Shown here one piece after another: positions 2,367-22,489 of a stretch of 35,244 bases of DNA. The DNA comes from Candidatus Sericytochromatia bacterium. Lineage in GTDB: Bacteria > Cyanobacteriota > Sericytochromatia > S15B-MN24 > JAQBPE01. The number at the start of each line of letters is the position of its first letter. Positions within the stretch are counted from its first letter, which is position 1. Both the position numbers and the translations under genes were made by a program. Below the pieces are notes generated by a model. It searched no databases, was not told the origin of the DNA, and saw nothing but the letters and a program-made list of their open reading frames with translations. The DNA lies in NCBI GenBank assembly GCA_035285325.1, contig JAYKJB010000015.1:1-35244 (forward strand), given 5' to 3'.

Positions 2367-3281
2367 GTGAGCTTTCCGGACCTGGGCCGTATTCCGCAAC
2401 CTTATCATCACATGATGCTGTCGAATGGGCGCCGGATGGCGGCCTTCAGACACGCCATCGCGCGGACCGTTCGCCCCGGCGACCGGGTCATCGAAGCCGG
2501 CACGGGCTCGGGCATCCTATCGGCCCTGGCCGTGCGGGCCGGCGCGGAGCACGTCTGGGCACTGGAAAGGGACCCGGAGATGGCCGCGGTGGCCCGTCGC
2601 ACGATGCAATTGAATGGACTCTCCGAGCGCGTCAGCGTGGTGGAGGGACCGGCAGAAGCGTTTGACTGCCCGGAACGTCCTGATGTGGTGATCTGTGAGA
2701 TGCTCCACGTCGGGCTGGTCAACGAACAGCAAGTTCCGGTGATGCGGGCTTTACTCGCACGTCACGGGCATCCCGGGCTGCGCATCATTCCCCACGCCGC
2801 GGTCAGTGCGCTGCAGCTGATGGCGGTGGATGACCATTACGAAGGCTTCCGGATTCCCCTGATCCGCTCCTCCCATCCCTACGTGGAGGACCCGCGCCTT
2901 GCCGCGGTGTCAGAGCCCGTCACCTACTGGGTCTGCTTGATGCAGGAGGCCGCCCCCGAGATCGACGTGTGCGTGCCCTTGGAGGCCGCTTGCGACGCCA
3001 CCGTCAACGCGGTCAGCCTGATCACCAAGGCGGTGATGACCGAGGCTTTCGACCATCCCGACAACGACTGGTACCTCTTCCAACTCCAGTTGCCGCTTCC
3101 GCCCCGCGAGGTGCAGGCCGGAGAGTCCGTGACGGTTCACCTGTCCTATCGCGCGGGCGCGCCCTTGGAGGCGATCCGGCTCGGCTGGGCTTCCCCCACC
3201 CGGGGCGCGGCCCCGCCTCCATCACCTCAGGCCGACGGGCCCGCGGGCGACGCCCCAGCGCCAAAGTCGCTCAGGTGCTGA
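2367..3281 (+). CDS. PRMT-like class I SAM-dependent methyltransferase
   Basis: Probable protein-arginine-methyltransferase-like enzyme of 304 residues. The N-terminal YHHMMLSNGRRMAAFRHAI matches the region before motif I of PRMTs. Motif I is VIEAGTGSGILS (residues 41-52), and an acidic residue (ALERDPEM) follows strand 2. The segment PDVVICEMLHVGLVNE contains two glutamates, E111 and E120, with the nine-residue spacing of the PRMT 'double-E' loop. The C-terminal half looks like a beta-rich barrel with a Pro/Ala tail, also as in PRMTs. GTG 2367 is chosen because GAGGT lies six bases upstream; the frame stays open further upstream, but that part is antisense to FNR. The last 11 bp overlap the end of the A-type carrier gene on the other strand. 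The substrate is unknown. Methyltransferase: confident. Arginine specificity: inferred. Confidence 0.85.
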   Translation: MSFPDLGRIPQPYHHMMLSNGRRMAAFRHAIARTVRPGDRVIEAGTGSGILSALAVRAGAEHVWALERDPEMAAVARRTMQLNGLSERVSVVEGPAEAFDCPERPDVVICEMLHVGLVNEQQVPVMRALLARHGHPGLRIIPHAAVSALQLMAVDDHYEGFRIPLIRSSHPYVEDPRLAAVSEPVTYWVCLMQEAAPEIDVCVPLEAACDATVNAVSLITKAVMTEAFDHPDNDWYLFQLQLPLPPREVQAGESVTVHLSYRAGAPLEAIRLGWASPTRGAAPPPSPQADGPAGDAPAPKSLRC

Positions 3282-3630
3282 AGCTCTCGCCGCAACCGCA
3301 GCTGGTCTTGGCGTTGGGATTGCGGAACTTGAAGCCCGCATTCATCAGATCGTCGTCATAGTCGATTTCCATGCCGGCCAGGTACAGGGCACTCTTCATA
3401 TCCACGATCACCTTGACCCCCCCTTCGGCCGGGATCAGCTTGTCGGCCGGTCCCGCCTCGGCGGCCACGTCAAGCTTGTACGACATTCCGGAGCAGCCCC
3501 CGCCGGCCACGGCCACTCGCAGGTAGGCGTCCGGTTGGCCCTTGCGAGCAAACAGGATCTTGACGTGCTCGGCCGCCCGCGACGTGAGCGTCACCAATGG
3601 TTTGGTCGAGGGCTTGGATTCAGTGGTCAC
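3271..3630 (-). CDS. A-type iron-sulfur carrier protein (SufA/ErpA/IscA-like)
   Basis: Small A-type carrier (HesB/IscA family) that receives Fe-S clusters from the scaffold and passes them to apo-proteins. The 119 residues include the three family cysteines: C46 in GGGCSGM, and C111 and C113 in the C-terminal SCGCGESF. They also include the typical YDDDLMNAGFKFRNPNA stretch. The start is GTG 3630, with a strong AGGAGGAG five bases upstream. It follows the Rrf2 gene by 38 bp on the same strand, so regulator and carrier are probably one transcript, divergent from sufBCDSU. SufA, ErpA and IscA cannot be separated from sequence alone; the neighbourhood favours a SufA role. Its 3' end overlaps the convergent methyltransferase gene by 11 bp. 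Confidence 0.93.
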   Translation of the reverse strand: MTTESKPSTKPLVTLTSRAAEHVKILFARKGQPDAYLRVAVAGGGCSGMSYKLDVAAEAGPADKLIPAEGGVKVIVDMKSALYLAGMEIDYDDDLMNAGFKFRNPNAKTSCGCGESFST

Positions 3631-3668
3631 GGGACTCCTCCTGGTAGGGTGGGAAAATGAATGGGGGA

Positions 3669-4133
3669 TCAGCGAGGTCCAGCCGGGGAAAGGGCGTCGG
3701 AGGCTGGCGGGGGGACCTGGTCAGCCGTGTAGCGGTCGTCCCGCACCAGGTCTGCCAACGTGACAGCATCCAGGCGCGCCAGATAGACCTGCTGGGCAGC
3801 CGAGAAGGCCGATTTCAAGGAACACCCCAGGCGAAAGCAAGCATAATCCTGCGAACCGGTGCAGAGGTTGACCGCCAGCTCCCCCTCGATCGCCTCAACC
3901 ACCTGCTTGAGGGTGATGGCCTGTGCGTCCCGCGCAAGTTCCAGTCCCCCACTTGGCCCCCGACGAGACGTCAACAGGCCCGCCTTGCTCAGCTGGTTGA
4001 TCACCTTGGCCAGAAAAGAGGGCGGAATGCGCTCCTCACGGGCCACATCCGCGGTGTTCACGGTCTCACCCTGCGGTTGTTTGGCCAAGTAAAGCATGGC
4101 CAGGCAAGCATACTCGGTGGCGCGGGTGATCAT
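3669..4133 (-). CDS. Rrf2-family (IscR-like) transcriptional regulator
   Basis: Winged-helix DNA-binding regulator of 154 residues. The N-terminus MITRATEYACLAMLYLA and the recognition region with IPPSFLAKVINQLSKAGLL and RRGPSGGL are classical Rrf2 signatures. Three cysteines, C91, C99 and C104 (CX7CX4C), lie where IscR and NsrR hold their cluster, so a redox or Fe-S sensing role is likely. The frame extends upstream to 4316, but that part has no Rrf2 similarity, and family alignment fixes the start at ATG 4133. A TGGAG lies about 12 bases upstream, which is a weak ribosome site. A Pro/Ala-rich tail of about 20 residues follows the conserved domain. It is divergent from sufB, and the shared upstream region carries repeated TGTCA/TGACA half-sites, which suggests that it controls both directions. 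Confidence 0.93.
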   Translation of the reverse strand: MITRATEYACLAMLYLAKQPQGETVNTADVAREERIPPSFLAKVINQLSKAGLLTSRRGPSGGLELARDAQAITLKQVVEAIEGELAVNLCTGSQDYACFRLGCSLKSAFSAAQQVYLARLDAVTLADLVRDDRYTADQVPPPASDALSPAGPR

Positions 4134-4266
4134 GGGGAGGCGTGACTCCAATCTGGTATCGGCGGGCGTCAATCGCCGGATGACACCCCGCAATGTTAGA
4201 ATGGCCTGAACCGCGTTGACCAGTCGAACGGCCCCCCACTGGAGAGGGAATCCTCTCGCCGCCGGG

Positions 4267-4289
4267 TGTTCGGGCCGCCAGCCCGAACA
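4267..4289. repeat. Perfect 9-bp inverted repeat (hairpin) in the suf/rrf2 control region
   Basis: Arms TGTTCGGGC (4267-4275) and GCCCGAACA (4281-4289) are exact reverse complements separated by CGCCA. No T-run follows on either strand, so it is not a standard terminator. On the minus strand it would lie in the rrf2 leader; on the plus strand it lies about 180 bp upstream of sufB. It could be a DNA operator or an RNA element. Confidence 0.6.
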
Positions 4290-4359
4290 TCTGGGAATCG
4301 AGTCCAGGCTCGTCAAAAGGTCCGACCCGTGCGATCTGGCAAGGGATTGCCCCAGAGCG

Positions 4360-4416
4360 TGTCAGCCGTCGCCGTCTGACATGCTGTCATCATAACGGAT
4401 CGACGCCCTGGTGACA
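4360..4416. promoter_or_regulatory. Candidate Rrf2/IscR-like operator cluster upstream of sufB
   Basis: TGTCAG (4360-4365) and CTGACA (4376-4381) form a 6-bp-arm inverted repeat with a 10-bp spacer. The second arm also pairs with TGTCA at 4385-4389 (TGACA-TGC-TGTCA). A further TGACA lies at 4412-4416. Rrf2 proteins bind dyad sites near their own and their target promoters, so this is the best operator candidate. Which protein binds is inferred from position only. Confidence 0.5.
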
Positions 4417-4441
4417 AACGGGACCGGAATTATCCGAAATA

Positions 4442-4450
4442 TGCTATGAT
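4442..4450 (+). promoter_or_regulatory. Extended -10 promoter element for sufB
   Basis: TGC-TATGAT fits the extended -10 consensus TGn-TAtaaT (5 of 6 in the hexamer). No good -35 is found at 16-18 bp, as is usual for extended -10 promoters. Transcription would start near 4457, about 15 bases before the sufB ATG. Confidence 0.5.
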
Positions 4451-4471
4451 GCGAATCAGAGGTCGTATCGA

Positions 4472-5908
4472 ATGAGCACCCAGGTCGAAAAAGTCATCAA
4501 CCGCCCCTACGAAGCGGGTTTCGTCACTCCCATCGAGTCGGAACGCTTCGCCAAAGGGCTCAATGAAGACGTGGTCCGCCGCATCTCGGAAAAGAAGGGC
4601 GAGCCTGAGTGGTTGCTGAACTTCCGCTTGAAGGCATTTCGTCACTGGCTGTCGATGGAAGAACCCCACTGGGCCCACGCGGATTACCCGGCCATCGACT
4701 ACCAAGATATCGTCTATTACTCGGCGCCGAAGCAGAAGAAAAAGCTCGGTTCAATGGACGAGGTCGACCCGGAGCTGGTTCGGACCTTCGAGAAACTCGG
4801 CATTCCCCTGCACGAGCAGAAGATGCTCGCCAATGTGGCCGTGGACGTCGTCTTCGACAGCGTCTCGGTCACCACGACCTTCAAGGACAAGCTGAAGGCC
4901 GCCGGGGTGATTTTCTGTTCCTTTTCTGAGGCCGTGCGCGAATACCCTGACCTGGTCCAGCGGTATCTCGGCACCGTGGTGCCCTACACGGACAACTACT
5001 TTGCCGCCCTCAACTCGGCCGTCTTCTCGGATGGGTCGTTCTGCTTCATTCCCAAGGGCGTGACCTGCCCGATGGAACTGTCTACCTACTTCCGGATCAA
5101 CACGGAGGAAAGCGGCCAGTTCGAACGGACCTTGATCGTCGCCGAGGAGGGCGCCAGTGTCAGCTACCTGGAAGGCTGCACCGCGCCCAAGTTCGACACC
5201 AATCAGCTTCACGCAGCCGTGGTGGAACTGGTCGCCCTCGACGACGCCAATATCAAGTATTCGACCGTGCAAAACTGGTACGCCGGCGACGAGAACGGCG
5301 TGGGGGGCATTTACAATTTCGTCACCAAGCGAGGCCTGTGCAAGGGCAAGCGCGCCAAGATCTCCTGGACCCAGGTCGAGACCGGGTCGGCCATCACGTG
5401 GAAATACCCTAGCTGCGTGCTGATGGGAGAGGAATCGGTCGGAGAATTCTACTCCGTGGCCCTGACCAACCACTGCCAGCAAGCCGACACCGGCACCAAG
5501 ATGGTTCATATCGGCCCGCGCACGCGCTCAACCATCATCAGCAAGGGCATTTCGGCGGGCCGGTCCCGCAACACCTATCGCGGGCTGGTGCAAATGGGGC
5601 CCAAGGCGGCTGGTGCCCGCAACTATTCGCAGTGCGACTCCATGTTGATCGGGCAAGCCTGTGCCGCGGACACCGTGCCCTACATCCGCGTGCAAAACGA
5701 CACAGCGCGCGTCGAGCACGAGGCGACGACCTCGAAAATCGGCGAGGACCAGATGTTCTACTTTGCCCAACGCGGCATCGGCGCGGAAGAGGCGATCGCC
5801 ATGATCATCAACGGATTCTGCAAAGACGTGTTCACCCAACTGCCGATGGAGTTCGCCGTGGAAGCGACGAAATTGCTCGGTTTGAAGCTTGAAAACAGCG
5901 TAGGTTGA
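4472..5908 (+). CDS. sufB: Fe-S cluster assembly scaffold SufB
   Basis: Core scaffold subunit of the SufBCD complex, on which Fe-S clusters are built in the cytoplasm. The 478 residues match the usual SufB length and show the diagnostic stretches [41 protein letters not shown] (C388, the position of the essential cysteine of E. coli SufB) and [19 protein letters not shown]. The start ATG 4472 has AGAGG nine bases upstream. It is the first gene of a seven-gene run, sufB-C-D-S-U-nfu-FAD oxidoreductase. The sufC frame begins at or within its stop codon, so translation is probably coupled. Control is likely through the operator cluster just upstream. Confidence 0.98.
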
Positions 5909-5913
5909 CCCCC

Positions 5914-6702
<789 letters not shown>

Positions 6703-6706
6703 GACC

Positions 6707-8023
6707 ATGGCCACCACCACCTCCAGGGAAAGCTGGCTGGGAAACGTGCTGGCGCAAGCCCCCGCACTGGAAGGCACAGGGCCGCTTGCCCGTCTGCGCC
6801 AGCAGGCGGACCAGATCTTGCGCCACGCCGCCCTGCCCTCGCCACGAGACGAAGCCTGGCGATTCACCTCGCTGGCTCCCCTGACCGCCCATGAATACAG
6901 CCGGGTTCAAGCCCCTGGGCAGGTGGAGCACTCGGAGGTGGCCCGCTATCTGTGGCCCGAGGCCGAAGGGTGCCGGCTCACCTTCGTGGATGGTCACTAC
7001 GCCGCCCATCTGAGCAGCCGAGAGCCTGGGGCCTCCCTGACCGTGCGGGCCTTTTCTGAACTGGACGGCGAGGAGTGGGCCGCGATGCTCGGTCGCGTAG
7101 CGCCCACGGACGGCGACGTGATGGCGGCTCTGGCGGCTCGCCACTGCCGGGATGGCGCCCTCGTCCGGATTCCTGCCGACTGGTGCGAGGAACGTCCGAT
7201 CCACCTGCTGTTCATCTCCACCGGCCTGCCCATTCCCAGTCTGATCGCCCCCCGGGTACTGGTCGTGGCCGAATCGGGCTGCCGGGCCACGCTGGTGCAG
7301 GCCTATGTGGCCTTGCAAGAGACAGTTCAGGCCGTGCATGCCGTGACCGAGGTACTGGTGGAAAGAAACGCACGCCTGCATCACCTGCGCGTGCAAAGTG
7401 AAAGTCGACTCGCCACGCATCTGGAAACCTGGGCCGCGCGGCTGGCGCCCTCCGCCCACTACACCCTGAAGCACATCACGCTGGGCGGACGGCTCTCCCG
7501 ACTTGATGTCACCATCGACGGCCAGGGCAACGAGATCGATGCTCACCTGGATGGGCTGGCCTTGCTATCGGGCGACCAGGTGGCCGACGTCCATTCTCGT
7601 CTCATCCACGCTTTTCCGCACGGGCGCAGCCGACAGACCCAGCGCATGATCCTGGACGAGCGCTCTCACGCGATTTTTGCGGGCATGATCAAGGTCTTAC
7701 CGGGGGCCGTGCAGACCGATTCGGCCCAAAGTTCACGCGGACTGCTGCTCTCCCCGCACGCCCGACTGGACACCAAACCCGAGCTGGCGATCGAGGCAGA
7801 TGACGTCAAATGCGCCCACGGGGCCGCGATTGGCCAGCTGGATGCGGATCAGCTCTTCTACCTGCGAGCGCGGGGCATTTCAGAAACCGAGTCTCGCGCG
7901 TTGCTCACGTATGCCTTCGCCTCTGAGGTGCTGGAGGGAGTCGCCATCCCGACCCTGCGCACGCAGTTGCAAGCCGTGATGCTGGGACGCACCACCGCTC
8001 CCAGGCCGAGGCTCACGCCGTGA
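6707..8023 (+). CDS. sufD: Fe-S cluster assembly protein SufD
   Basis: SufB-like partner in the SufBCD complex, needed for iron entry and cluster formation. The 438 residues are divergent in the N-terminal half, as is normal for SufD. The C-terminal beta-helix region is recognisable from AGMIKVLPGAVQTDSAQ, LDTKPELAIEADDVKCAHGA and LFYLRARGI; the His of KCAHG corresponds to a functionally important SufD residue. ATG 6707 lies 4 bp after sufC. The stop TGA overlaps the sufS GTG start (GTGA), so the two are translationally coupled. Confidence 0.96.
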   Translation: MATTTSRESWLGNVLAQAPALEGTGPLARLRQQADQILRHAALPSPRDEAWRFTSLAPLTAHEYSRVQAPGQVEHSEVARYLWPEAEGCRLTFVDGHYAAHLSSREPGASLTVRAFSELDGEEWAAMLGRVAPTDGDVMAALAARHCRDGALVRIPADWCEERPIHLLFISTGLPIPSLIAPRVLVVAESGCRATLVQAYVALQETVQAVHAVTEVLVERNARLHHLRVQSESRLATHLETWAARLAPSAHYTLKHITLGGRLSRLDVTIDGQGNEIDAHLDGLALLSGDQVADVHSRLIHAFPHGRSRQTQRMILDERSHAIFAGMIKVLPGAVQTDSAQSSRGLLLSPHARLDTKPELAIEADDVKCAHGAAIGQLDADQLFYLRARGISETESRALLTYAFASEVLEGVAIPTLRTQLQAVMLGRTTAPRPRLTP

Positions 8024-9258
8024 ACGCCGCGCTGGTAGACGATCTGGACCTGGCGGCAATCCGGGCGGACTTCCCGATTCTCTCGCGCCGGGTGAATGGC
8101 CACCCCCTGGTCTACCTGGACAATGCGGCGAGCACACAACTGCCGCGTCCAGTGCTGGATCGGTTGATTCACTATCATAGTTACGAACACGCCAACGTGC
8201 ACCGCGGCGTCCATACGCTCAGCCATGAGGCGACGGCCGCTTACGAAGGCGCGCGTGACATCGTGAGGGCCTTCCTGAACGCCGAACAGCGGGAAGAAGT
8301 CATTTTCACGCGCGGCACCACCGAGGCCATCAATCTGGTAGCACAGACGTTCGGCCGCACGCGCCTTGAGCCGGGAGACGAGGTCCTGATCACGGCCCTG
8401 GAACACCACGCCAATCTGGTTCCGTGGCAAATGGTGTGCCGGGAACGGGGGGCTTTGCTGAAGGTGGCGCCGATTCATGACGACGGGAGTCTCGACATCG
8501 AGGCCATGATCGCCTTGATGGGCGCCAAAACGCGACTGGTCGCCGTCACCCACGTGTCCAACGCCTTGGGGACGATCGTCCCGCTCGAACCCATCATCCA
8601 GGCCGCCCACGCCCTTAACATCCCTGTCCTGGTGGACGGCGCCCAGGCCGTGCTCCACCAACCAGTCGACGTTCGGGCGTTGGATGCCGACTTCTACGTC
8701 TTTTCGGGGCACAAACTGTGTGCCCCGACGGGCATCGGCGTGCTGTATGGCAAACGGGCCTGGCTGGAATCCTTGCCGCCCTGGCAAGGGGGTGGGGATA
8801 TGATCCGCACCGTGACCTACGCGCACACCAGCTTCAACGACCTGCCCTACCGCTTCGAGGCGGGCACCCCTTCCATCGCCGCGGCGGTCGGCCTCGGGGC
8901 CGCGATAACTTACCTGCAGGGCATCGGCCTGGGGCGTATCCAAGCCCACGAGCAACGCCTGCTGCAATACACCACGTCACGCCTCGCTGAATTGCCGCAG
9001 CTTCGCATCCTGGGAACGGCTCGGGAAAAGGCTGCCGTCATTTCCTTCGAACTGGCCGGTGTCCACCCCCACGACGTGGGCAGTGTGTTGGACGGAGAGG
9101 GCATCGCCATTCGGGCCGGACACCATTGTGCCCAGCCCCTCATGGCGCGCCTGGGCGTGCCAGCCACGGCACGGGCGTCGTTCACCTTCTACAACACGCT
9201 GGAGGAATGTGACGCCCTGATTCGGGGACTGCACGTCGTCACGGAGTTGTTTGCCTGA
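8020..9258 (+). CDS. sufS: Cysteine desulfurase SufS
   Basis: PLP enzyme that takes sulfur from L-cysteine as a persulfide and passes it to SufU. The 412 residues show the N-terminal VYLDNAASTQLP, the TTEAINLVA and LEHHANLVPWQ motifs, the PLP lysine in SGHKLCAPTG (K222) and the catalytic cysteine in RAGHHCAQP (C370). The SufS (group II) pattern is clear, as opposed to IscS/NifS. Translation starts at GTG 8020, overlapping the sufD stop by 4 bp, and the stop overlaps the sufU ATG by one base. Confidence 0.98.
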   Translation: MNAALVDDLDLAAIRADFPILSRRVNGHPLVYLDNAASTQLPRPVLDRLIHYHSYEHANVHRGVHTLSHEATAAYEGARDIVRAFLNAEQREEVIFTRGTTEAINLVAQTFGRTRLEPGDEVLITALEHHANLVPWQMVCRERGALLKVAPIHDDGSLDIEAMIALMGAKTRLVAVTHVSNALGTIVPLEPIIQAAHALNIPVLVDGAQAVLHQPVDVRALDADFYVFSGHKLCAPTGIGVLYGKRAWLESLPPWQGGGDMIRTVTYAHTSFNDLPYRFEAGTPSIAAAVGLGAAITYLQGIGLGRIQAHEQRLLQYTTSRLAELPQLRILGTAREKAAVISFELAGVHPHDVGSVLDGEGIAIRAGHHCAQPLMARLGVPATARASFTFYNTLEECDALIRGLHVVTELFA

Positions 9259-9746
9259 TGTCGACCGCGCTTTACAACCAGCTGATTCTCGAACACAACA
9301 AGAAACCGCGCAACCACGGACGTTTGGAACAGCCGACCCACCAGAGCGAGGGGCTGAACCCGCTTTGTGGTGACCACATCTGGCTGACGGCTGTGGTCGA
9401 GAACGAAGCCATCCGTGAGATCCGGTTCGAGGGACAAAGTTGCGCCATCTGCCAGGCCTCGGCCTCGATCATGACCACCCAGGTCAAGGGAAAGCAGGTG
9501 CAGCAAGCCGCCCAGCTGATCCAGGATTTTCGCCACGTGGTGACGGGGCAGGCGTCTGCGGTGTCGCCAGAAAACACCGAGAATCGTTACTTTGACGCCT
9601 TTTCCGGTATCGCGAACCTGCCGGCTCGCGTGAAATGCGCCGTGCTGCCCTGGCACACGCTGCAAGCCGCCCTGTCCGGTCAGGACGCCAGTTCCACCGA
9701 GGGAACCTCGGATCCCATCCCCGGCTCCGGGCACGCCAGCCCCTGA
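9258..9746 (+). CDS. sufU: Zinc-dependent sulfurtransferase SufU
   Basis: Accepts persulfide sulfur from SufS and delivers it to the SufBCD scaffold. At 162 residues it resembles the SufU branch of the IscU fold. NPLCGDHI gives C37 and D39, SCAICQAS gives C62 and C65, and VKCAVLPW gives C127. C37, D39, C62 and C127 would be the zinc ligands. The insertion between the second and third cysteine motifs and the Pro/Ser-rich tail are typical of SufU rather than IscU. It starts on the last base of the sufS stop. A separate SufE is not seen in the window, which agrees with a SufS-SufU pair. Confidence 0.96.
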   Translation: MSTALYNQLILEHNKKPRNHGRLEQPTHQSEGLNPLCGDHIWLTAVVENEAIREIRFEGQSCAICQASASIMTTQVKGKQVQQAAQLIQDFRHVVTGQASAVSPENTENRYFDAFSGIANLPARVKCAVLPWHTLQAALSGQDASSTEGTSDPIPGSGHASP

Positions 9747-9779
9747 GTCTCTCTTCCCGCTTGAGCCCTTGACCCTCCC

Positions 9780-10343
9780 ATGCCCAAAATCGCCGAAATC
9801 GAATTCACCCCGAATCCCAACGCCAAGCGCTTCGTGCTGAAAGAGCCGATCACCACGGGCACAGCCCGCTCCTACGACAGCAGCGCGGGGGCAGCGGATG
9901 ACCCGCTGGCACGGGAGCTCTTTGCCATTCCCCACGTCACCGAGGTTTACTACGTCGATCGCTACCTGACCGTGGTGCAAGACGGGGCAGCCGCTTGGAG
10001 CGAGTTGGAACGCGCCTTGGCCGTTCCGATTCGGGCGGCCGATGCGCAAGCGCTGCAAAAGGCTTTTGCCACGCCAGCCGCAGCCAAGCTGTCGCCCGAC
10101 GACCTTTCGGAACTCGACCGGGGACGCCTGGAGCGCATCAATGCCCTGCTCGACGAGCGAGTCAGACCCGCCCTGATGATGGATGGCGGCGGCCTGGAGG
10201 TGGTTGGATTCAGCGGCAACACGCTGCAGATCCACTACATGGGCGCCTGCGGCACCTGCCCCAGCTCGATCACCGGCACCATGGCGGGCATCGAAGCCTT
10301 GCTGCAAACGATCGAACCGGCCCTGCAAGTGGTGGCCGTCTGA
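9780..10343 (+). CDS. nfu: NifU-like Fe-S carrier Nfu
   Basis: Late-acting carrier that holds a [4Fe-4S] cluster and transfers it to target enzymes. The 187-residue protein has two parts: an N-terminal Nfu-type domain (PNPNAKRFV near residue 12, then FAIPHVTEVYYVDRYLTV) and a C-terminal NifU domain (VRPALMMDGGGLEVVGF, then MGACGTCPSS). C157 and C160 form the CxxC cluster ligand. The two-domain form resembles mitochondrial NFU1 and alpha-proteobacterial proteins rather than the short cyanobacterial NifU-C protein. It follows sufU by 33 bp and ends directly against the FAD oxidoreductase start, so it belongs to the suf transcript. Confidence 0.95.
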   Translation: MPKIAEIEFTPNPNAKRFVLKEPITTGTARSYDSSAGAADDPLARELFAIPHVTEVYYVDRYLTVVQDGAAAWSELERALAVPIRAADAQALQKAFATPAAAKLSPDDLSELDRGRLERINALLDERVRPALMMDGGGLEVVGFSGNTLQIHYMGACGTCPSSITGTMAGIEALLQTIEPALQVVAV

Positions 10344-11851: not shown

Positions 11852-11929
11852 TTTCTCTTACCGAATTTGGCTGGCGCCCTGGCGATAACCCTCTCAGTGG
11901 TTCGCGACAACCATCCAAGGAGAGAGACG

Positions 11930-12214
11930 ATGCGTATCGAGCAGTTCACCCGCAACCTGATGAAGAATTACGACCGCAATGGCGACGGGTGGATCAACAT
12001 GACCCAGATTCCGGCCTTGGGCGTTTACTCGGAGGTCGATGGCCGGGCTCGCGACTTTTTTCAACGCTCCTCGCCAATTGGGCAATTCGTGACCCACGAG
12101 GCCTTGGTGGCGCAGGCCGTCGCGCACGAGGTCGATACCAACCGGGACGGTCATGTGAGCTTTTTGGAGGGCTTGATGGCCTGGGCTCGCTTCGGCATTA
12201 ACGGACTATTCTGA
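11930..12214 (+). CDS. Small EF-hand calcium-binding protein
   Basis: A 94-residue protein with two EF-hand loops. Loop 1 is DRNGDGWINMTQ (residues 15-26; the last ligand is Gln instead of the usual Glu/Asp). Loop 2 is DTNRDGHVSFLE (69-80), a complete consensus loop ending in Glu. About 40 residues separate them, with helical flanks. There is no signal peptide or membrane segment, so it is probably cytoplasmic and acts as a calcium buffer or sensor. ATG 11930 is chosen because AAGGAG lies seven bases upstream; an in-frame start at 11867 lacks support. It is monocistronic, preceded by an AT-rich promoter-like stretch and followed by a strong hairpin. Its partner is unknown. Confidence 0.85.
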   Translation: MRIEQFTRNLMKNYDRNGDGWINMTQIPALGVYSEVDGRARDFFQRSSPIGQFVTHEALVAQAVAHEVDTNRDGHVSFLEGLMAWARFGINGLF

Positions 12215-12429: not shown

Positions 12430-12451
12430 GCTCGTTTGATTTCAAACGAGC
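12430..12451. repeat. Perfect 10-bp-arm palindrome upstream of the Cys-rich gene
   Basis: GCTCGTTTGA (12430-12439) and TCAAACGAGC (12442-12451) are exact reverse complements with TT between them. It lies 26 bases before ATG 12478. As DNA it is a typical dyad operator size. As RNA it would form a stable leader hairpin just ahead of the ribosome-binding region. Confidence 0.65.
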
Positions 12452-12477: not shown

Positions 12478-13632
12478 ATGCGTCTGTCAAAACTTTTCCT
12501 GGCCGTGACGACGGCCTGGGCGCTGATGACCATGCCCCTTCAGCAGGCATCGGCCGCCCCCCTGCAAACGGATGCCACCGTGGTGGCGTCCCATCACAAG
12601 TCGGCGGCCAAGGCCAGCAAGCCGACGCCCAAAGCGGAGAACAAGTCGGCCAAGCCGGCCTCGGACTGCTGTCAACCGGAGGCCAAGCCAGCCGCCAAGG
12701 CACCCGCAGGCTCAGGGGAAGCCAAGGCCGCTTGCGGCGGCAAGTGCTCCCCCGAAATGAAGGCCCACTGCAAGGGCAACTGCTCGCCGGAGATGAAAGC
12801 AGCGTGTGGGGGCGCCTGTGGCGACGCGTGCAAGGCGGAGCAAAAGGTCGCCTGCACCTGCAAGCCCGGCACCACCTGCCAGGGCGAGTGCAAGTCCGGC
12901 AAGGTCGCCTGCACCTGCAAGCCTGGCACTAGTTGCCAGGGCGAATGCCAGTCGGGCAAGGCGGCCTGCGACTGCAAGACCAGCACCTCGTGCGACGGGG
13001 CCTGCAAGGACAAGGGCGCGGCGGCGTGCAAGGATGACTGCCACGGCAAGCCTGCCGCCAAGTGCGAAGGGCATGGCAAGATGGCCTGTGCGTGCGCGCC
13101 TGGCACCGCCTGCGAGGGTGAATGCAAGACGAAGCGCAAGCAGCACGACAAGGGCTGGAGCCGCCATTTCCCCGGCTCGAAGCCTTACCGGGCGCGTAGT
13201 TTCCGCTACATGCCAGCCCTGGCTGGAGCGGCCAATCAGCACCTGGTGTATGGCGCGGAACGCGGCCTCAAGGTCAACTCGTGGCTGTCGCTCGGTGGCC
13301 AGATGAACTATGCCCTGCAGCTGGGTCAGGCGGCGCCCTTGGGCCCCTGGTTGACGATGTATGGCGGCTTCCTGCCCAAGCTGGGCACCGACCTGGGCCC
13401 GGTGCGGGCGGATGTCGGTGCGCTGCTGGGTGGCGGTGCCATGTTCCGCACGAACAAGGACAGCCTGCTGGAAGCACGCGCCCTGTGGACGGTGGAACCT
13501 CGCCTCGACCTGGGCTGGACCTCCGAGGGCAAGGGCTACGGCATCTCGGCCGGCTACCTGCTCTCGAACAGCCAGGCGGACTTCGGAGGCCCCTCGATTG
13601 GCCTTCGCATGACCTGGAAGCACGCCAAGTAA
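12478..13632 (+). CDS. Secreted Cys-rich tandem-repeat protein with beta-strand-rich C-terminal domain
   Basis: I do not recognise this family. The 384-residue product starts with a signal peptide (positive MRLSK, hydrophobic core, cleavage near ASA-A, residue 26). Residues 30-62 are Lys/Ala/Ser-rich. Residues 64-216 carry 28 cysteines, including an approximately 19-residue tandem unit of the form KVACTCKPGTTCQGEC at 123-141 and 142-160, with decayed copies at 161-180 and 201-218. A separate CSPEMKA repeat lies at 90-109. After a basic linker, residues 240-384 have alternating hydrophobic/polar strands with aromatic and Gly residues, ending in GLRMTWKHAK. This looks like outer-membrane beta-strands, though too short for a large barrel. 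ATG 12478 is chosen because it opens the signal peptide. Thiol-rich repeats suggest metal binding or disulfide cross-linking in the envelope; this is inference. Confidence 0.85.
   Translation: MRLSKLFLAVTTAWALMTMPLQQASAAPLQTDATVVASHHKSAAKASKPTPKAENKSAKPASDCCQPEAKPAAKAPAGSGEAKAACGGKCSPEMKAHCKGNCSPEMKAACGGACGDACKAEQKVACTCKPGTTCQGECKSGKVACTCKPGTSCQGECQSGKAACDCKTSTSCDGACKDKGAAACKDDCHGKPAAKCEGHGKMACACAPGTACEGECKTKRKQHDKGWSRHFPGSKPYRARSFRYMPALAGAANQHLVYGAERGLKVNSWLSLGGQMNYALQLGQAAPLGPWLTMYGGFLPKLGTDLGPVRADVGALLGGGAMFRTNKDSLLEARALWTVEPRLDLGWTSEGKGYGISAGYLLSNSQADFGGPSIGLRMTWKHAK
12844..13137 (+). repeat. In-frame 57-bp tandem repeats within the Cys-rich gene
   Basis: Two near-identical 57-bp copies (12844-12900 and 12901-12957) are followed by a diverged third (12958-13017, 60 bp). 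After a spacer comes a fourth, decayed copy (13078-13137). Each encodes a 19-20-residue unit with four cysteines. Copy number may vary between strains. Confidence 0.8.
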
Positions 13633-13658: not shown

Positions 13659-13690
13659 CACCGCCCGAGACCATCGGGCGGTGTTTTCTC
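13659..13690 (+). terminator. Rho-independent terminator after the Cys-rich gene
   Basis: A perfect 10-bp stem CACCGCCCGA / TCGGGCGGTG (13659-13668 and 13674-13683) with loop GACCA is followed at once by TTTTCTC. It lies 26 bases after the stop codon at 13632. It is the clearest terminator in the window. Confidence 0.9.
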
Positions 13691-16650: not shown

Positions 16651-17454
16651 TCATTCCGTCGCCTGGGGCAGGAATGCTTTGGCGATGTCGAAATTCGTGT
16701 AAGTTTGGATGAAATAGGCGTCCGGATAGGCCAGCGAGCGATCGTGGGCGATCGCGTAGCCGAGCGACAGGAACGTGTCCGGCACGATCTCCACGTTCAT
16801 CACCAGGCAGGTGCCGGAAATCTCGCTCACCCCCCCGACGGTGTCGATGGCGAAACTGAAGGGGCCAACCGGCGGAAATTCGTGCCCCCCAAAAAAGGCT
16901 TGCTGCCCTGTCGGCAATGGCCAGGTGGGAACGAACAGGTCAGCCCCTCCGGGGGTGACACGGGCCAGGCCCAAGGTGGTGCGTCCCAGGTCACGTCCCC
17001 CCCACGTCAGGGTCTTGGTCGTGGCGAGGTAAGCGAAATTCAGGCTTTTGTTCGGGTGCAGAAAGCCCCAGGACATGAAACCGACGGCGCAGGACGGCCA
17101 CCAGGAGGCCTCCTCGATCAAGCCCAGCTTGAGATTCCCGAGGGGTTTGACGGGAGGTTCGCCGCCCGGTGTAGCCCACAGGTCCAGGCCTACTTCCAGA
17201 CCTGGCAGGCGATAACCTGTGTCTCCCAGAGGCATCGCCGGAAGAATTCCGACATTCAGCCCGGTCCAGGAGTCCACATTGCCGCCATAGAAGGCATTGT
17301 AAAAGGACATATTGCCCTTTCCCCGCGGCGCCACCTCTCCCGTCGGCGCAAAGATCAAGCTGGTGGGGTAGGCCGCCGCTGGCGCCAGGGTACCGCCCCA
17401 GCATAGCGCTGAGACAAGCGCCAGAAAGCCTGCTTTGTAAAGGTGCGGAGGCAT
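16651..17454 (-). CDS. Secreted beta-rich, possible outer-membrane protein
   Basis: Family not recognised. The 267-residue product has a signal peptide (MPPHLYKAGFLALV onward, cleavage near PAAAYPTS, residue 28). The mature chain is rich in Gly, aromatic residues and alternating strands: GNMSFYNAFYGG, GYRLPGLEVGLDLWA, LGNLKLGLIEEASW, SLNFAYLATTKTLTW and FLSLGYAIAHDRS. This looks like an 8-12-strand barrel. The ATG at 17454 is preferred because it opens a clean signal peptide; a GTG at 17553 would overlap the pentapeptide stop as GTGA but adds an unlikely 33-residue lead. It is the third gene of the minus-strand run. Function unknown; an outer-membrane location is inferred. Confidence 0.75.
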   Translation of the reverse strand: MPPHLYKAGFLALVSALCWGGTLAPAAAYPTSLIFAPTGEVAPRGKGNMSFYNAFYGGNVDSWTGLNVGILPAMPLGDTGYRLPGLEVGLDLWATPGGEPPVKPLGNLKLGLIEEASWWPSCAVGFMSWGFLHPNKSLNFAYLATTKTLTWGGRDLGRTTLGLARVTPGGADLFVPTWPLPTGQQAFFGGHEFPPVGPFSFAIDTVGGVSEISGTCLVMNVEIVPDTFLSLGYAIAHDRSLAYPDAYFIQTYTNFDIAKAFLPQATE

Positions 17455-17549
17455 CTCCCGTCGTTTCCCTCGTCTGTGAGCAAGCGTGCGATTGATTGTC
17501 CCGCAGACGGCGACGTTGGTCCACATCGGCCAGGCCAAGCGAGGCCATT

Positions 17550-18929
17550 TCACGAGGATGCCTCCCGACGCTGCATTTCGGTGGCACTGAAGAAAGCCCC
17601 TTCAAAGACGGCCCCTGCCGTGTTGGCATCGCCCAGATAAGCCTCAGCCAGGCGTGCCTCTCGAAAATTGACGCCTGGCAGATTGGCCATGCCCAGATTG
17701 GCCCGCGTCAGGTCTGCCCGCCGCAGGTTCGCTCGCGCCAGGTCAGCCCCCTTGAGGTCAGCCTCACCCAACTGGGCCATGGAAAGGTCAGCGTCCCGTA
17801 AATCAGCCCGACGCAGGTCGACACGGTGCAAGTCGGCCCGGTTCAGGTGAATCCGGTTCATGACCGCCGCGCTCATCCGGGCGTGATTGAAACAGGCCTC
17901 GTGGGCCCTGCATTGGCCCAGATTGGCGCGTACCAGGTGAGCCGAGCGAAAGCTCACCCGCGAGAGATCCAGGCGGCTGAAATTGGCTTCGAACAACCGG
18001 GCCTCATCGAAACACGCTCCCTCGAGCGTGGCCCGAATCACGCCTCCACTGGGGGAGGCCTGGCTGAACTGGGCCCCGGAAAGTTCGGCCCGGCTCAGGT
18101 CAGCGCCCGTCAGGTTGGCTTGCGCCAGCACCACATCCGGCATGACACACCAGCGCAAGCAGGCCTGGGCAAAATTGACGCTGCGTAGATTCGCACCAGA
18201 CAACCACGCGCCGGAAAGGTCCGCGCGACTCAAATCCGCCCCGGTCAGAACACTGCCCTGCAGACACGCCCCGGCCAGGCAAGCGTGACGGGCCCGGACC
18301 CCACGCAAATTGGCCTCCGTCAGGTCGCAGCCGCCCAGCAAGGCGCCCTCCAGGTTGGCCCCTTCCAGATCAGCCTGCACCAGCTGGGCCCGGGACAGAT
18401 TGGCTCCTGACAGGTCTGCCCCACGCAGATCGATCCCCGTCAGGTCAAAACCGCTCAGGTTAAGGTTCTTGAGGATGGCCTCGGACAGGTTGGCTCGTCC
18501 CAGGGTGGCCCCAGTCATCACGGCACCCGTCAGATTCGCGCGATGAAGGATGGAGCCCTGCAGTTGCGCATAAGAGAGATCCGCGCCGCCCAAAAATGCG
18601 CCCGTCAGATTGGCCTCGACCAGGGAAGCCCAATCAAGGTCGGTTCCTCCCAGTTGGGCCTCGTGCAGATCCGCACGCCGCAGGTCGGCGCGATGAAGGT
18701 TGGAGGAGACAAAATTGGTTTTCCTGAAGGAAATCCCAGGAGCCACCAGGCCCGGCAAATCTCGTTCGGCCAGGTTGGCCTCATCGAGGGGAATCCCGGC
18801 CTCAACGGCTGCTTCGACCGTTTGACGCCACGTGTTGTCCAGCGCCCCGTGCGAGAACAAGACGTGGTCGTAAGGATTTCGCTTATAGATGACCAGGTCC
18901 AAATGGCTGCACCAGAGTCCACCGCCCAC
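17550..18929 (-). CDS. Long pentapeptide-repeat protein
   Basis: About 459 residues. After an N-terminal part of about 45 residues, nearly the whole chain (about 46-445) follows the A(D/N)LXX pentapeptide rule, for example HRADLRRADLHEAQL and GADLSGANLSRAQL. That is about 75-80 units, enough for a right-handed square beta-helix of nearly 20 coils. Central Leu/Phe positions are well kept, with some Met, Ile and Val substitutions. There is no signal peptide, membrane segment or enzyme domain, so it is probably a cytoplasmic scaffold or binding rod. The start is uncertain: GTG 18929 has AAGGG five bases upstream, and an in-frame TTG nine codons later is possible. It lies 24 bp behind the OmpA-like gene and runs into the beta-rich gene, so it is likely part of one transcript. 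Confidence 0.93.
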   Translation of the reverse strand: MGGGLWCSHLDLVIYKRNPYDHVLFSHGALDNTWRQTVEAAVEAGIPLDEANLAERDLPGLVAPGISFRKTNFVSSNLHRADLRRADLHEAQLGGTDLDWASLVEANLTGAFLGGADLSYAQLQGSILHRANLTGAVMTGATLGRANLSEAILKNLNLSGFDLTGIDLRGADLSGANLSRAQLVQADLEGANLEGALLGGCDLTEANLRGVRARHACLAGACLQGSVLTGADLSRADLSGAWLSGANLRSVNFAQACLRWCVMPDVVLAQANLTGADLSRAELSGAQFSQASPSGGVIRATLEGACFDEARLFEANFSRLDLSRVSFRSAHLVRANLGQCRAHEACFNHARMSAAVMNRIHLNRADLHRVDLRRADLRDADLSMAQLGEADLKGADLARANLRRADLTRANLGMANLPGVNFREARLAEAYLGDANTAGAVFEGAFFSATEMQRREASS

Positions 18930-21157: not shown

Positions 21158-22489
21158 TCAGATGCCGTAGGCTCCGGCGCGCTGCAACGCCCCCATGCTG
21201 ACCGAGGGTTCCAGGGCGACCAGCAGGGAGTCTCGTACCTTCCGCCAGAGTTGGTCGGGCCCTTCGAACCCCACTTCCAGAGTCACAATAGGGATGCCCA
21301 TCGCATTGGAGGCGTGTTGCCCCAGCGAGCCCGGGGTCTCATAGCCGATGAACGGCAACAAACGATAGCCATTGGCCCGTGACATGGCCCGAGCAATGGC
21401 GGCCGCCCCCGCCCCATCGTAATTGTTGCACGCCATGTGCGCGTGAAAGGCCACGATCAAGGCTGGCCGTTCGTTCTCGATGACCCGCATCACGGCCTGC
21501 GATTCCGGCTCGGAGAGCGGCCGGGGCCCACTGAAGTAACGGCCACGGACCGTGGGACGCCAGCGGGTCGGGAAATTGCGATTCAGGTCCACCCCGTTCA
21601 GGTTGGTGCGAATGTGGCGGGTGAAACCATCCGGGTTGGCGTTGGGAATGGCGAGAAAGCGATTGCGTGCCAGTACAGGCTTGAACTTATCCGACTCGCG
21701 CATCATCCGGAAAATGAGGTCCGTGCCCTGCGGTTCATCGCCGTGAATCGAGCCGATAAACAGCACGCTGCGTTCACCCTGGCCGATCGACGCCAGATGA
21801 ATCGGCGCCCCAAGTTTAGAGCGACCGACTTCTTTGAACATCGAAGGCAGCGCGACCTCGTGGCGTCGCGCCGTGGGAGCCACCCCGGCCTCGCGTTCAA
21901 CGGCGCGGGGCGCGGCCGGGGCCGGAATGCTCGCGGCAGAGGCCCTGGGCGGCGTGAAAAGTCGCACCATGGCGGGGAGGCCCTGGCGACGAGCCAGGTC
22001 ACCGGCGGTAAAACCCCAGCGGGTGCGTCGCAGCGGGTCGGCGCCGTAGGACAGCAACACCTTGACCGCCCCTACTCGACCCTCCCAGGTGGCCCACTCG
22101 AGGGCGGTGTAGTCATTTTTCTCGCGGGCATCAATGTTGGCACCGCGCAGCAAGAAAATTTCGACGAGGTCTGCATGGCCCTGTTGGGCCGCCCAGATCA
22201 GCGGCGTGTATCCATTCTCATCCTGAGCCTCGAGGTCTGCCCCCGAGGACAGCAGCACCAAGGCCGCCCGCTTCTGACCCTGCTGCGCGGCCATGATCAG
22301 AGGCGTGTTGCCCCGATCATCGCGCGATTCCAGAGAGACACCGGTGGCCAGGCAGCGATTCAAGGCCACCAGGTCACCCGTTCCAGCGGCCAGCAACAGA
22401 TCGGACCCGGATTCCGCCACCGCCACCGGCGTGGCCAGCAGGCACGACGAGAGCAGCACCAACGAAAGCAAGGAACGAGCGGCGGTCAT
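21158..22489 (-). CDS. Secreted ankyrin-repeat / M14-family zinc carboxypeptidase fusion
   Basis: A 443-residue protein joining two unrelated parts. A signal peptide (residues 1-26, AVA-ES) is followed by about four ankyrin repeats (about 29-175, for example NGYTPLIWAAQQGHADLVEI), a Pro/Ala linker (about 180-208) and an M14-type peptidase domain (about 210-435). Zinc ligands are H249 and E252 in GSIHGDEPQG and a His in AFHAH (349 or 351). Substrate residues lie in NANPDGF and VDLNRNFP, and the likely catalytic Glu is in VTLEVGF. The order and size resemble murein-peptide amidase MpaA or other small M14 enzymes that cut peptidoglycan peptides. An alternative lipobox LSSC (13-16) is present, so it may be a lipoprotein. 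The start ATG 22489 lacks a clear ribosome site. Confidence 0.92.
   Translation of the reverse strand: MTAARSLLSLVLLSSCLLATPVAVAESGSDLLLAAGTGDLVALNRCLATGVSLESRDDRGNTPLIMAAQQGQKRAALVLLSSGADLEAQDENGYTPLIWAAQQGHADLVEIFLLRGANIDAREKNDYTALEWATWEGRVGAVKVLLSYGADPLRRTRWGFTAGDLARRQGLPAMVRLFTPPRASAASIPAPAAPRAVEREAGVAPTARRHEVALPSMFKEVGRSKLGAPIHLASIGQGERSVLFIGSIHGDEPQGTDLIFRMMRESDKFKPVLARNRFLAIPNANPDGFTRHIRTNLNGVDLNRNFPTRWRPTVRGRYFSGPRPLSEPESQAVMRVIENERPALIVAFHAHMACNNYDGAGAAAIARAMSRANGYRLLPFIGYETPGSLGQHASNAMGIPIVTLEVGFEGPDQLWRKVRDSLLVALEPSVSMGALQRAGAYGI

Follow-up and report, generated by a model that had tools for sequence, protein, structure and literature searches.

The gene described here, at positions 12478-13632 on the plus strand of a 35,244-nucleotide contig from a Candidatus Sericytochromatia bacterium (the whole of which we call the window), encodes a protein in which a putative signal peptide and a predicted disordered arm with 28 cysteines precede a small beta-barrel of a lineage-restricted family. 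Computation establishes the layout of the sequence, the fold of the barrel, the family, and the recurrence of arms rich in metal ligands among its members. The best reading of these results, which by analogy with known systems we regard as probable if by no means secure, is an outer-membrane anchor whose disordered arm faces the periplasm and binds soft metals or metalloids. We put forward more tentatively, as a serious possibility that falls short of the balance of probability, a broader proposal: that the family serves repeatedly as the anchor of disordered metal-binding arms that are exchangeable (Cys, Met/His, or none), yielding in this genome a membrane-tethered periplasmic metallothionein, which an envelope lacking the usual enzymes of disulfide formation would make possible.

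The open reading frame spans 384 codons plus a stop. Its first 26 residues (12478-12555) read by eye as a Sec-type signal peptide, with MRLSK, a hydrophobic core and cleavage expected between ASA and AP, and AlphaFold2 models a helix at residues 2-17; inspection thus agrees with the export signal called in the first-pass annotation, which was made from the sequence alone. A linker rich in Ala, Lys and Pro and free of cysteine follows (residues 27-63; 12556-12666; pLDDT <50), and then the cysteine-rich arm (residues 64-216; 12667-13125), where the earlier count of 28 cysteines in 153 residues is exact. The arm also holds 21 lysines and no Phe, Trp or Tyr, and its cysteines form one CC, four CxC and nine CxxxC motifs; against the cysteine rate of the neighboring suf genes (1.3%), the binomial probability of at least 28 cysteines in 153 residues is 8e-24. 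In the full-length AlphaFold2 model nearly all of residues 19-230 have pLDDT <50, and the arm is accordingly predicted to be disordered. The 19-residue repeat noted earlier is a real unit, but it covers only part of the cysteine region, as three tandem 57-bp copies (12844-13014; first copy KVACTCKPGTTCQGECKSG) with 100, 88 and 68% identity to the first, and one dispersed copy (13078-13134; 70% to the first). Outside these units the cysteines lie in two 12-residue units ending in CSPEMKA (ACGGKCSPEMKA and HCKGNCSPEMKA; residues 85-108; 12730-12801) and in irregular CxxxC spacings. The first two 57-bp units differ at 7 of 57 bases, the change being synonymous in four of the six altered codons, and every cysteine codon is retained between them.

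The strand-rich, outer-membrane-like C-terminus that was suspected from the sequence is borne out by structure prediction. Built on a six-sequence alignment, the AlphaFold2 model of the domain (residues 235-381; 13180-13620; conserved in A1/A2) has eight antiparallel strands in an up-and-down arrangement (pLDDT 85.4, pTM 0.76), and the full-length model gives the same eight. Foldseek against the PDB returned the OmpA transmembrane domain as top match (1qjp, E 4.3e-6; 1bxw, TM 0.74 on the query), with further matches to Ail, NspA, OprF, OmpX and OmpW, a superposition that would imply a closed barrel. Hydrophobicity alternates clearly by residue in five of the eight strands. The domain ends in SIGLRMTW (residues 373-380; 13594-13617), a putative C-terminal beta-signal for BAM to go with the signal peptide; its pattern, ..G..[hydrophobic].[aromatic], recurs in 9 of 11 family members where the barrel ends, against 2 of 1541 8-mers elsewhere in the barrels, and Omp85/BamA-type proteins are encoded in the same genome. 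Given the model, the Foldseek matches, the beta-signal and the presence of Omp85, the C-terminal domain is an OmpA-type outer-membrane barrel by fold, and one that lies outside every named sequence family. Neither the whole protein nor the barrel matched a family in Pfam, NCBIfam, PHROGs or PDB sequences at E up to 1, and the OmpA, OmpX and OmpW models of Pfam and NCBIfam gave no match to the barrel at the same limit. By this model, the domain would sit in the outer membrane with both termini in the periplasm.

How widespread is the family? In profile searches, 9 of the 18 genomes of the class had the barrel, the one with the Cys-rich gene among them, and no further genome had it out of 292 from the phylum. 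Relatives yielded twelve homologues or fragments, all within one Sericytochromatia-like class; the named records among them are metagenome genomes (for example, "Cyanobacteria bacterium RYN_339"), and the genus of the Cys-rich gene is represented by one genome in the comparison set. A plasmid collection and IMG/VR gave no match, and a Gemmataceae locus (L031) considered as a homologue was rejected as a chance match, with a short frame and none of the layout.

Paralogues of the barrel are present in several genomes of the class, and the segment between signal peptide and barrel varies strongly among members. Cys-rich extensions occur in three genera: the arm has 28 cysteines in the genome of the window (G000); that of the sister genus (G001) has 9 Cys and 9 His, and that of G010, which belongs to another family, has 12 Cys and 8 His. 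Cys, His and Met together make up 18-22% of these extensions. Two other extensions are Met/His-rich, mainly Met, and reach 50% in G009, where the start of the homologue is uncertain and no signal peptide is seen, and 32% in G007. Those of the G005, G008:C507 and G006 copies are short and poor in ligands. In all, 7 of 11 extensions have at least 13% Cys+His+Met and 4 of 11 are short and ligand-poor, while the barrels themselves contain 1-8%. As judged from sequence, then, the barrel carries interchangeable extensions, whether Cys-rich, Met/His-rich or plain, and metal binding cannot be its universal role given the four ligand-poor members. The Cys regions of the three genera are alike in composition, with no convincing sequence homology; searched alone against the class, the Cys arm had no credible homologue (best match outside, E 0.04). 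The family tree is poorly resolved, and we make no claim about the number of origins of the Cys form.

The Cys-rich gene probably forms its own transcription unit, as its own 263 bp of upstream space with a palindrome and its own terminator-like hairpin suggest. The perfect palindrome, GCTCGTTTGA-TT-TCAAACGAGC (10-2-10; 12430-12451), ends 26 bp before the start codon, and the intrinsic-terminator-like hairpin (13659-13683, plus strand), followed by TTTTC, lies directly 3' of the gene. The palindrome is the sole one with 10-bp arms in the whole window (mean in shuffles, 0.4), and with an RNA fold z of -2.5 it is possibly an operator or a 5'UTR hairpin. It occurs once in the genome, and its use as a regulon marker was therefore rejected; the upstream regions of those homologues that were checked contained no palindrome, and Rfam gave no match around the gene.

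On the upstream side lie the suf iron-sulfur operon and then a small EF-hand gene, and no metal transporter, oxidase or metal sensor is found beside the Cys-rich gene. The operon (3271-10343) encodes SufB, C, D, S and U and an Nfu-like protein (SufB, SufC, SufS and SufU assigned by NCBIfam, the Nfu-like protein by Pfam, and SufD by position); an Rrf2-type regulator oriented divergently and an IscA/SufA-type carrier accompany it. The small protein between it and the Cys-rich gene (11867-12214) has two EF-hand-like motifs, DRNGDGWIN and DTNRDGHVS, with weak Pfam EF-hand matches. A functional tie to the suf operon was considered and set aside: the adjacency is probably incidental, since the Cys-rich gene has its own upstream space and terminator and the homologue of the sister genus (G001) is not near suf. 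Elsewhere in the window, the minus strand encodes an exported protein in which ankyrin repeats are apparently joined to a zinc-carboxypeptidase-like (M14) domain (21158-22489, by eye), and another of up to 300 residues without a Pfam family (16651-17553; a sub-threshold YjbH hint only), which may be a further unannotated envelope protein.

Only some of the homologues have neighboring genes that hint at a link with metals, metalloids or sulfur. The Met/His-rich paralogues G007:C261 and G009:C295 adjoin genes for an SQR-like flavoprotein and for a fusion of an ArsR-type regulator with rhodanese; DsrE is also nearby in the case of G009:C295. G008:C114 adjoins an ACR3 arsenite exporter (TIGR00832, 456 bits), the plain copies in G005 and G007:C172 adjoin an ornithine carbamoyltransferase-like gene (by eye), and the neighbors of the Cys-rich copy in G001 differ from those in G000. 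The conserved cluster of Met/His-rich barrel paralogue, SQR-like flavoprotein and ArsR-HTH-rhodanese (L032, 3460-7430; L039, 7407-10260, with DsrE in L039) is itself a candidate sulfur- or metal-responsive locus. A different locus (L037, 8664-16001) encodes at least four related exported proteins with the mature start AATKTMTGPTTK.PE.RDG.KG..HEYVEYTY and no assigned family, beside a divergent barrel homologue.

Why hang 28 cysteines from a barrel? We propose that the protein would leave the cytoplasm via Sec and that its last ~150 residues would fold in the outer membrane as an eight-stranded barrel of the OmpA type. Because barrels of this type have their two ends on the periplasmic side, the disordered arm would hang in the periplasm, as a metallothionein-like sink for soft metal or metalloid ions such as Cu(I), Zn, Cd or As(III), among which we do not single one out. 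Binding would keep the ions by the outer membrane and clear of the inner membrane and the cytoplasm, and because an eight-stranded barrel is too narrow for an obvious channel, sequestration or buffering seems more likely than transport. Membrane insertion, orientation, metal binding and a protective or storage role are what we infer from the layout, fold and family.

Whether the cysteines would bind metal or pair with one another depends on their redox state. Where an envelope has enzymes that form disulfides, oxidation of 28 cysteines would be expected. Across the class, VKOR and DsbB go undetected in most genomes, VKOR being found in G005, G007, G008, G011 and G013 and DsbB in G007 only. Neither was detected in the genome of the Cys-rich gene (98.6% complete), and both went undetected in all three draft genomes with Cys-rich arms (G000, G001 and G010), so the thiols may stay free; VKOR is present in three of the six family-bearing genomes without such arms, a comparison of draft genomes too few for significance. 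This pattern leans toward free thiols and metal over the disulfide-knotted fiber that the first-pass annotation had offered as one option, and the replacement of Cys by Met/His in homologues favors metal as well. A disulfide-structured spacer, in which cross-links would make the arm a stiff rod or knot in the periplasm, connecting the outer membrane with other layers, would suit the even number of cysteines in a compartment that is oxidizing in many bacteria, the regular 19-residue periodicity, and a Lys-rich linker that could contact peptidoglycan. We nevertheless consider it unlikely, since no enzyme of either kind was found in the three genomes, the number and spacing of cysteines vary between genera, and homologues with Met/His instead of Cys are incapable of disulfides. 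Somewhat less likely still is a role in which the protein handles sulfur or arsenic instead of buffering cations, with the thiols trapping As(III), persulfide or other sulfur species. The ACR3 gene beside one paralogue, the SQR-like and ArsR-rhodanese genes beside two others (one with DsrE), and the position of the Cys-rich gene 3' of suf all speak for this role, but the paralogues with such neighbors are Met/His-rich rather than Cys-rich, and the sister Cys-rich copy in G001 lacks them.

The other option in the first-pass annotation, a surface metal scavenger, fares differently in its two parts. Metal binding gains support from homologues whose arms, in the same position, are rich in Cys/His or Met/His, whereas the surface location fits poorly with a barrel whose ends both face the periplasm. 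An arm pushed out through or past the barrel could be imagined, as the domain is a barrel and an N-terminal arm before it repeats the passenger-barrel order of autotransporters; autotransporter barrels, however, are 12-stranded (4 x 3 in trimers), as opposed to the eight strands of the OmpA-type barrel predicted here, and we regard surface exposure as improbable. More improbable again, and largely refuted, is that a ribosomally made metallophore of the bufferin/HvfA kind arises from this protein by post-translational modification, an MNIO enzyme acting on the cysteines. The GGKC and GEC motifs in a Cys-rich, exported sequence are reminiscent of the precursors of such metallophores, but the Cys-rich region is fused to a barrel, and the PF05114 enzyme was found neither in the genome nor in the window, while control genomes gave matches.

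If the periplasmic metal-binding arm is real, a metallothionein anchored in the outer membrane would represent a new site and format for soft-metal storage. It would also offer a putative function for an unannotated outer-membrane family in a non-photosynthetic class that is sister to the cyanobacteria, and one may ask whether envelopes that have lost their disulfide enzymes can use cysteine to bind metal.

Set beside known systems, the protein shares parts with several. With the OmpA transmembrane domain, OmpX, NspA, Ail and OprF it has in common the eight antiparallel strands, Foldseek E-values down to 4e-6 and the beta-signal; it differs in matching none of their sequence families, in lacking the C-terminal peptidoglycan-binding OmpA domain and in its long N-terminal Cys arm. 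The arm resembles metallothioneins in its 18% Cys, CxC and CC motifs, abundant lysine, absence of aromatics and repeats, and by this analogy may bind metal through thiolate clusters. Known metallothioneins, though, both bacterial (SmtA, PF02069) and eukaryotic, are free cytosolic proteins, whereas this one would be exported and tethered to an outer-membrane barrel, and no metallothionein model in Pfam or NCBIfam matched it. The copper storage protein Csp1 (DUF326) is likewise exported and Cys-rich, with the CxxxC spacing seen here in residues 86-118, but our arm is Gly/Pro-rich and predicted to be disordered, not a four-helix bundle, and has no Csp/DUF326 match in Pfam.

Closest of all are PcoB/CopB (Pfam PF05275), although the CopB model of Pfam does not match our protein. 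The first-pass annotation had recognized no family with this layout; that holds for sequence families, but the layout has a partial precedent in these proteins, and our literature search found none for a barrel with a Cys-rich arm. In PcoB/CopB, a disordered N-terminal arm rich in His and Met precedes an outer-membrane barrel; the arm of PcoB very probably points into the periplasm, and Cu efflux depends on its His and Met residues (PMC12509749). The likeness lies in a disordered N-terminal arm rich in metal ligands, here mainly Cys, joined to a C-terminal outer-membrane barrel. The differences lie in the barrel (12 strands in PcoB, eight here), in the ligands (His/Met against Cys in this copy) and in the context, PcoB being in an operon with the multicopper oxidase PcoA, with no pcoA among the ORFs of our window. 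The Cys-rich-arm protein is thus, on these comparisons, best described as an analogue of PcoB/CopB and not a member, and if our reading is right it would suggest that bacteria outside the Proteobacteria reached a PcoB-like design of barrel plus metal-binding arm independently, with cysteine as the ligand.
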